This document shows, piece after piece, positions 40,536-42,794 of a stretch of 64,000 bases of DNA (position 1 is its first letter; the number at the start of each line of letters is the position of its first letter). The position numbers and the translations under genes are program-made. Where the stretch lies: contig NZ_JAMPKY010000012.1 of NCBI RefSeq assembly GCF_039962255.1, positions 62,001-126,000 of the forward strand, read 5' to 3'. Under the pieces are notes generated by a model. That model was not told where the DNA came from. It saw nothing but the letters and a program-made list of their open reading frames with translations, and searched no databases. This stretch comes from Leptolyngbya subtilissima AS-A7 (GTDB lineage Bacteria; Cyanobacteriota; Cyanobacteriia; Phormidesmidales; Phormidesmidaceae).

Positions 40536-40904
40536 ACGCTTGGCTTAGTGATCAAAGTTTGCTTCACTGTTGACACCTAGCTCCGGCTTAAACGATGGAG
40601 GATCGCGATCCCTAACACCCGAGAAAGTGCGTCACATGCTTTAGGCAGCCTCGCTGGGATAGACCGCACCATCAAAATTCTTTATTCCCTAGGCTACGCC
40701 GACCCTAACGACTGAAGCGATCTCATTCCCGTATCCAACAGTGAAGTTGTTGGCCCAGGTAAATCTGAGGAGCATACACATTCCCATCCGTGGATGGTCA
40801 TTTTGACCAAAACCGTACTCATCGAGTAAGCGACTAAAACGATCGAGTCTCTGCTGCTGTCTCCTAACCCTAGGCGATCGCAGCGGGACTCGCTGTGTTT
40901 AGCT
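40536..40904. other. Intergenic region, gene-poor
   Basis: About 370 bases that separate the SMI1-like gene from the adenylate-kinase/thioredoxin gene. Frames are short and broken. No hairpin or motif stands out apart from HIP1-like GATCGC. Confidence 0.35.
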
Positions 40905-41795
40905 TCAAGCCAACAGGCGAGTTACCGCCGCATTGTATTCCTGATAAGACTTGATTCCTGTTAGGGTCTCCAGCCGCTCGCCATCTCTAAAGAACATCAC
41001 CGCCGGTATGCCCTTGAGCTCAAATCGCTTGGTGATCTGCCGATTAGCATCAAAGTCGATCTTTCTCACCGTGACCGAATCACTGTAGGCCTCGGCTAGT
41101 TTATCGATCGATGGCGTCACCTGTTTGCAAGAGCCACACCAAGACGCCATACAATCGACCACCAGCAAGGGTTCACTGGCCAACAGCGCATCGAGTTCAG
41201 CCTCGTCGCGAATTAGTTTGGCGGCACCCGTGTCTTCTTCGCCCAGCTGGGTCAGAGCGTTGGCTACCTCCGCAGACGACAGGTTGGCATTAATGGTGGC
41301 GAGCTGCGATCGCTGCTGATAGTACTCAATCAGCGGCTCTAACGACTGCTGATAGGTCTCTAACCGGTCTCGGATGGTGGAAATTGGCGGCTTTTCGCTG
41401 CTTTCGTTTAAGAGTCGGATGATCAAAAACTCAGTTGTCGCTTTGAGATAAGCCGCCGTCGCTGGTGGCTGCCCTACCGCTGCCCACCACTCATCAAACG
41501 CCTGGACCTGAGCCAGCGATCGCGGGAATCCCTCCAAAACCCAGCCTTTGAGCATAGTATCGGGCTGCTCAAACCGCTTGCGGATCAGCTTCATGGCCAG
41601 AGCATCGGGAATCAGCTCGCCCGCATCTACGTAGGGACGAGCCTCTACACCAATCGCAGTCTCTGCGGCGATCGCCCCGCGAACCAGTTCCCCCATAGCC
41701 ACATGGGGAACTTGCCAGCGTTCAGCTAGCGCAGCCGCTTGCGCCTTTAGCCCTACGCCAGGAAGGCCCAGTAGGATAAATTGCTTAGTTTTCAT
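40905..41795 (-). CDS. Adenylate-kinase-like domain fused to a C-terminal thioredoxin domain
   Basis: The 296-residue protein has two parts. Residues 1-185 resemble adenylate kinase: GLPGVGLKAQ in the P-loop place (canonical GxPGxGKGTQ), VPHVAMGELVRG, GWVLEGFPRSLAQVQ and a shortened region without a full LID domain. Residues about 190-296 are a thioredoxin: LLVVDCMASWCGSCKQ with WCGSC replacing WCGPC, FDANRQITKRFELKGIPAVM with cis-Pro. The usual P-loop Lys is shifted one place, so kinase activity is doubtful. The fusion suggests redox control of, or redox sensing by, the nucleotide domain. Confidence 0.85.
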   Translation of the reverse strand: MKTKQFILLGLPGVGLKAQAAALAERWQVPHVAMGELVRGAIAAETAIGVEARPYVDAGELIPDALAMKLIRKRFEQPDTMLKGWVLEGFPRSLAQVQAFDEWWAAVGQPPATAAYLKATTEFLIIRLLNESSEKPPISTIRDRLETYQQSLEPLIEYYQQRSQLATINANLSSAEVANALTQLGEEDTGAAKLIRDEAELDALLASEPLLVVDCMASWCGSCKQVTPSIDKLAEAYSDSVTVRKIDFDANRQITKRFELKGIPAVMFFRDGERLETLTGIKSYQEYNAAVTRLLA

Positions 41796-41969
41796 AGAAT
41801 GGCAATATCCTTCTTCCGCTGTTCATCCCTACATTCATCATCTATGTCAAAGGGCTAAAACCTGAGTTTTTTAACCTCATTTAACGGCAGGCCAAGAATA
41901 ACCATTGGGCTAATTTAGGCTTCGAGTAACAGTGATGAGTACACCCTTGATCTGATTCGCCCCGTCTCC

Positions 41970-42794
41970 ATGCCGTCATCTCCACCTCGCATTTACTGCC
42001 TCCCCGCTACCGACGCTCCAGTGGTAGCGGTATTTCGACGTGGACCTAGTCAGTGGGCTCACGTCGGTCGCTGGGATTTGGCTCAGAACTGCTACGAGCC
42101 AGGGGGCTGGTTACGGGGCCGCATTTTTCCCCGGCGCTCAGACATTTCCCCCGATGGGCGCTGGCTGTGCTACTTTGCTCACAACCCCAAAGCTCGCTGG
42201 GAATATGGAGACGCCTATGTCGCCGTATCCAAGCTGCCCTGGCTGACGGCCCTCCATGCCTTCGCCACCTGCGGCACCTGGACTCGGGGTTACTACTTCA
42301 CGACGGGTGGCAGCCGCGAAGACTCAAAAGCTACCACTCTGCCTATTCCCTATGATCTCACGTTCATTCCGGTTGAGCAGTTCGCTAACGAACGGCGGCG
42401 GGGCTGGCTAGAAGCCCGCAATTCACCACCTCGTAGTGTCGGTGGCCCCTGGGATGAAAACCGCAATGCTCGCTTGCAAAAACCACAGCCGGGAGGCCCC
42501 TACTTGCTGCGGCTAGAAAGCCTGGGCCGGGCCGGCGGCGAATTTGGGGTTGGCCAGGCGATAGACGGCCTGCGAGTAGTCTATGCCCTTGAATCGGAGC
42601 AAGACATCAAGATTCTAAATGATGTGCAATGGGCTGACTGGACTGCCCAAGGACAACTGCCGGTAGCTACTCGCAGTGGCAAACTGCAAGTTCGCGAGTT
42701 GCAGAAGCATTCCTTTAAGGTCGCTTTTGAGGCCGATCTATCTGCATTGCAGCCAGAGCCGATGGAGGCTCCTGATTGGGCTCAGCGATGGTAA
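41970..42794 (+). CDS. Uncharacterised protein, possibly WD/propeller-like
   Basis: The 274-residue protein has no family that I recognise. It is soluble, rich in Trp and Pro, and lacks signal or membrane helices. Segments such as SQWAHVGRWDLAQ, ISPDGRWLCYFAHNP and AYVAVSKLPWLTALHAF read like a stretch of beta-propeller blades. The end, QPEPMEAPDWAQRW, has a WAQRW motif repeated from DW-type pairs. It is flanked by opposite-strand genes, and its start is ATG 41970. Confidence 0.5.
   Translation: MPSSPPRIYCLPATDAPVVAVFRRGPSQWAHVGRWDLAQNCYEPGGWLRGRIFPRRSDISPDGRWLCYFAHNPKARWEYGDAYVAVSKLPWLTALHAFATCGTWTRGYYFTTGGSREDSKATTLPIPYDLTFIPVEQFANERRRGWLEARNSPPRSVGGPWDENRNARLQKPQPGGPYLLRLESLGRAGGEFGVGQAIDGLRVVYALESEQDIKILNDVQWADWTAQGQLPVATRSGKLQVRELQKHSFKVAFEADLSALQPEPMEAPDWAQRW

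Follow-up and report, generated by a model that had tools for sequence, protein, structure and literature searches.

Permanent linkage of a nucleotide-binding module to a redox-control module has a precedent in cyanobacteria in the CBS-CP12 fusion proteins; that of Microcystis, according to a review, binds AMP and inhibits the activation of PRK by thioredoxins (PMC9406205, citing Hackenberg 2018). Adenylate kinase is likewise found with a redox-responsive element in Chlamydomonas, whose ADK3 has a CP12-like tail (PMC9406205), and a thioredoxin permanently joined to its partner is known from NTRC, a reductase-thioredoxin fusion (PMC9025218). The plant CBSX proteins have been proposed as modulators of thioredoxin, but had no effect in that paper's own assays (PMC7921703).

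The protein considered here, an adenylate kinase (ADK)-like domain fused to a thioredoxin (Trx), is encoded in the window, i.e., the whole 64,000-nucleotide stretch of DNA that was analysed, and resembles each of the fusion systems in part. Compared with CBS-CP12, both of its domains are different and neither CBS nor CP12 is present; where the tail of ADK3 is a CP12-like cysteine pair, the cyanobacterial fusion has a thioredoxin; and while the partner in NTRC is an NADPH reductase, the partner here derives from a nucleotide kinase. We rate the ADK-Trx fusion as belonging with these nucleotide-module/redox-module proteins, its own architecture being apparently undescribed. No description of such a fusion in cyanobacteria was found in the open-access literature searched, which is weak evidence of absence, and PMC9025218, which surveys the thioredoxin systems of cyanobacteria, does not mention adenylate kinase by term count.

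The fusion gene is complete (40905-41795, minus strand), with an ATG start; upstream, around 41808-41815, lies a ribosome site of the AAGGA type, rich in purines. The promoter scan returned no sigma-70-like site in 40536-42050. Its single product of 296 amino acids consists of an ADK domain (residues 1-185; 41241-41795, minus strand) followed by a thioredoxin domain (residues 197-296; 40908-41207, minus strand), which Pfam matched as PF00406 (residues 8-163, 113.6 bits, 1.1e-32, cut-off 26.8) and PF00085 (residues 201-287, 76.8 bits, 1.4e-21), respectively. The ORF, its strand, its motifs and the presence of both domains in one polypeptide are thus as the earlier note had read them. The Pfam scan yielded ADK/AAA and thioredoxin-like families, along with sub-threshold noise, and no CBS or CP12 domain. 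The NCBIfam ADK equivalogs also matched, those listed all falling under their cut-offs, the best being PRK02496 with 163 bits against a required 262. AlphaFold2, given a 23-sequence alignment, modelled two confident, well-formed domains (mean pLDDT 85.5), and the pTM of 0.65 fixes no arrangement of these relative to each other. When the model was submitted to Foldseek, the top solved-structure matches were all adenylate kinases.

Across genera, no conserved neighbours of the fusion were found; those at the window locus are shared only among close Nodosilinea relatives, and operon context there was uninformative. A divergent upstream ORF (41970-42794, plus strand, 274 amino acids) belongs to a cluster (c22) present in a few close relatives, and is otherwise not conserved beside the fusion.

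The domain-architecture search for ADK plus thioredoxin in cyanobacteria, suggested by the earlier note, was positive: a profile search recovered the fusion from 39 of 65 genomes in the Leptolyngbyaceae family to which the window belongs (that of Nodosilinea and its kin) and from two genomes of another family, with zero matches in the remaining genomes of a 390-genome sample of the class. The full-length form occurs in about 40 of 145 related genomes, its carriers being Nodosilinea, Leptolyngbya, Phormidium tenue, Tildeniella, Halomicronema, Adonisia and Phormidesmis-like strains, and the nearest relatives of the window's fusion are those of Nodosilinea, which makes that genus the probable source of the window. 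Viral contigs contained no relatives, and a viral origin was rejected. In one orthologue (L021; G059:C184:3030-3914) an in-frame TAG interrupts the gene close to the LID of the ADK domain, reflecting either a pseudogene or a MAG error.

The note had recognized that its reading would fail if the orthologues were all simple thioredoxins, or if the fusion came from an error between two genes, and the existence of about 39 fused orthologues excludes both. The presence of unfused adk and trx neighbours in related genomes might favour a sequencing or assembly error that joined two genes; against this, the same fusion occurs in one continuous frame in about 40 independent assemblies, and four genomes hold both the fusion and a separate unfused pair. 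Among 12 close orthologues, dN/dS (Nei-Gojobori) was about 0.12 in the ADK half and about 0.06 in the Trx half; purifying selection acts on both. Together, the occurrence in about 40 genomes and these ratios exclude an artefact, to which we give practically no credence.

The roles of individual residues in E. coli ADK are well established, and we compared 38 fusion ADK domains with 29 canonical cyanobacterial ADKs using E. coli numbering. The P-loop, GAPGAGKGTQ in E. coli, has degenerated to GLPGVGLKAQ in the fusion (residues 10-19; 41739-41768, minus strand). The Walker A lysine, K13, is present in 100% of the canonical proteins and in 0/38 fusions, its position being Leu in the window protein (L16), as the note had observed; every one of the 38 orthologues has Val, Leu, Gly or Ala there. 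Elsewhere in the P-loop, retention was 3% for G14 and 5% for T15, while G12 has become D, E, K or R in nine of the 38 fusions, whose P-loops are far decayed. Catalytic residues of the LID and core have fared similarly (R123, 5%; R156, 0%; D158, 11%; D159, 0%), and the ATP/LID residues as a set are kept significantly worse than other conserved columns (p=1e-4). Retained residues include R119 (100%), Q92 (97%), G85 (95%), R88 (89%), R167 (82%) and R36 (66%). The AMP-side motif EGFPR (residues 88-92; 41520-41534, minus strand; E. coli D84-R88) is largely intact, with F86 and P87 at 100% and D84, which changes to E, at 50%. Nevertheless, the AMP-site columns as a set show no higher retention than the remainder of the fold (70.7% vs 65.8%, p=0.97). 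T31 survives in 3% of fusions, having been replaced by Met in 32/38, and D33 is mostly lost.

Two further peculiarities had been remarked upon in the note. The LID proved to be short by comparison with E. coli, but of ordinary length for a cyanobacterial ADK; in this region the fusion aligns gap-free with the housekeeping ADK of the window's genome, whose LID is equally long, and LID length was rejected as a meaningful feature. What is missing from the LID is instead the RGRxDD signature of short-LID ADKs, at whose position the fusion carries a remnant, RLLNESSEKPP (residues 127-137; 41385-41417, minus strand). The second peculiarity, a lysine one place after the K13 position, is real in the window protein but is not a conserved substitute: of the 38 orthologues, 13 have K at this position, the others including eight with R, six with E, four with A, three with N and one with D, and the shifted lysine was likewise discarded as meaningful. 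An active adenylate kinase with its P-loop rearranged by this one-place move could appeal to the lysine in the window protein and those 13 orthologues, but would have to accommodate E, D, A or N at the same position elsewhere, the additional loss of R123, R156, D158 and D159, and a canonical housekeeping ADK in the same genome; we consider it very improbable. In sum, relative to short-LID adenylate kinases (PF00406, PRK02496), the fusion has the whole fold, GFPR, R88, R119, R167 and the short LID in common, is without the P-loop lysine, T15, T31, R123, R156, D158 and D159, and adds a C-terminal thioredoxin. Judged by these residues, the ADK half is a predicted pseudoenzyme, catalytically dead, and the note's non-catalytic reading of the kinase part is strongly supported by the loss of catalytic residues across about 39 orthologues. 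Chlamydomonas ADK3, for its part, is catalytically active.

The thioredoxin half is of a different character. Equivalents of D26, W31, C32, C35, P40, P76 (the cis-Pro), G84 and G92 are invariant in 39/39 fusions, all of which therefore have the WCxxC, buried Asp and cis-Pro of the thioredoxin fold. The active site (residues 220-223; 41127-41138, minus strand) has both cysteines in 39/39 and reads CGSC in most, position 34 being Ser in 31, Pro in 7 and Ala in 1. With its active site intact, this half looks active. Like the cyanobacterial stand-alone thioredoxins of the VVDC(T)A(T/S)WCGPCK subfamily, which the unfused cluster described below encodes, it has an extra cysteine before the active site (C215, invariant in both), the CxxC and the cis-Pro. 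It differs from them in being fused, in the change of P34 to Ser in most orthologues, and in three fusion-specific substitutions, T to M216 (34/39), S to G262 (all) and L to F248 (38), which suggest an altered client surface.

A source for both halves was found in an unfused gene cluster. Four genomes (G035, G043, G052 and G059) carry the fusion together with this cluster (L045-L048), in which adk, a [2Fe-2S] ferredoxin gene, trx, a Zn-ribbon protein gene and a CBS-CP12 gene lie on the same strand. The cluster's adk has an intact P-loop, its CBS-CP12 domains score 97.6 bits (CP12) and 92.4 bits (CBS), and another CBS protein, which bears a CP12 tail, is also encoded, in complete form in G035 and G043. 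Among the ADKs, the clade of fusions grouped with those of the unfused cluster with support of 98/90, and of 99/98 in a second tree with extra taxa; in the Trx tree the fusion was nested among cluster-type thioredoxins (97/86), where the exact clade of fusion plus cluster Trx was not recovered and was not clearly rejected (AU p=0.088). By these trees, both halves of the fusion share ancestry with the unfused adk-trx pair, pointing to fusion of an operon pair whose kinase half became a pseudoenzyme. As the order of domains in the fusion is that of the genes in the cluster, the simplest account would be a deletion between duplicated neighbours.

Leptolyngbyaceae and Nostocales alike conserve the gene order adk-trx-CBS-CP12. 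With the Zn-ribbon gene between trx and CBS-CP12, it also occurs on the Nodularia plasmid pUHCC0039a, and in the chromosomes of Nodularia-like genomes and of one other genus in that family; clusters of the Nodularia type adjoin a recombinase-like gene and a multi-CBS protein. The Nodularia plasmid ADK fell outside the group in the best tree, a joint clade not being rejected (p=0.48). Cluster loci comprise L045-L048, L194, L228:8998-11765 and L230-L235, and the Nodularia plasmid copy lies among IS elements. Possibly, the adk-(ferredoxin)-trx-Zn ribbon-CBS-CP12 cluster is a mobile energy/redox module. In a distant cyanobacterium (L117:1173-2193), a second ADK paralogue near the fusion/cluster ADK group precedes, on its own strand, a CP12-like gene with 61% identity (tblastn) to the CP12 part of CBS-CP12. 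Plasmid 19 of Legionella adelaidensis (L229:8998-10030) has an E. coli-type adk with a thioredoxin-family gene (CAPC) directly after it; this pair, which is unrelated in sequence beyond the family level, was set aside as a relative, and its adjacency is probably independent.

Our overall reading, held with about even confidence, is that the fusion is a thioredoxin whose dead ADK half, derived like the thioredoxin from the adk-trx cluster, serves in adenylate-responsive regulation or targeting. The thioredoxin half would continue to exchange dithiols with its client proteins. The ADK half, having lost phosphate transfer, would act as a regulatory or targeting domain; it would bind an adenylate by means of R88, R119 and R167, the arginines kept on the AMP side, and so couple thioredoxin action to energy state. 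The setting may be redox control of the Calvin cycle, shared with the parent cluster's AMP-binding CBS-CP12 proteins.

Nearly as likely as such adenylate-dependent gating or targeting is that nucleotide binding has been lost, and that the ADK half is a pure, ligand-free docking or scaffold domain that brings the thioredoxin to one particular partner, such as another ADK, a Calvin-cycle complex or an oligomer. The average retention of the AMP site, the replacement of T31 by Met with the loss of D33, and the far-decayed P-loops with an altered G12 all speak for docking; conversely, a ligand-free scaffold would not need R119, R88, R167, Q92 and G85, which are kept at 82-100%, though these may be structural. 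The same AMP-site averages and losses weigh against the sensing of nucleotide and redox state by one polypeptide, which the note had put forward as a possibility. We give rather less than even odds to a more specific proposal, in which the dead ADK is a built-in AMP/ADP sensor gating or targeting the thioredoxin, the protein having evolved by fusion of two genes from an ADK-thioredoxin-CBS-CP12 module that links energy charge with redox control of the Calvin cycle.

We also weighed whether the thioredoxin might be the sole working part, and the ADK half a decaying passenger. The ADK half has evolved faster since the fusion (stem branch 0.86 vs 0.37 for Trx), its dN/dS is roughly double the Trx value, and it has suffered internal deletions in some orthologues (L033, L041 and L042). 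Yet its dN/dS still denotes strong constraint, many of its columns are invariant among fusions across 55% identity, and the ADK domain is missing from none of the full-length orthologues, leaving a passenger improbable.

The parent cluster combines an adenylate-interconverting enzyme, a thioredoxin and CP12 proteins of the AMP-binding type; of these, the fusion has retained the enzyme, in dead form, and the thioredoxin. Three CP12-domain matches were found in the window's genome. An obligate partnership between the fusion and CBS-CP12 was rejected, as full-length matches of the CBS-CP12 type occurred in 21/39 fusion-bearing and 11/26 fusion-lacking genomes. If our reading is true, the fusion would be, as far as we have found, the first bacterial thioredoxin with a regulatory domain derived from a nucleotide kinase, and would clearly exemplify the fusion of two operon genes in which one half loses catalysis; the conserved cyanobacterial cluster of adk, trx and CBS-CP12, to which it draws attention, makes it directly testable whether adenylate levels are linked to the control of carbon fixation by thioredoxin.
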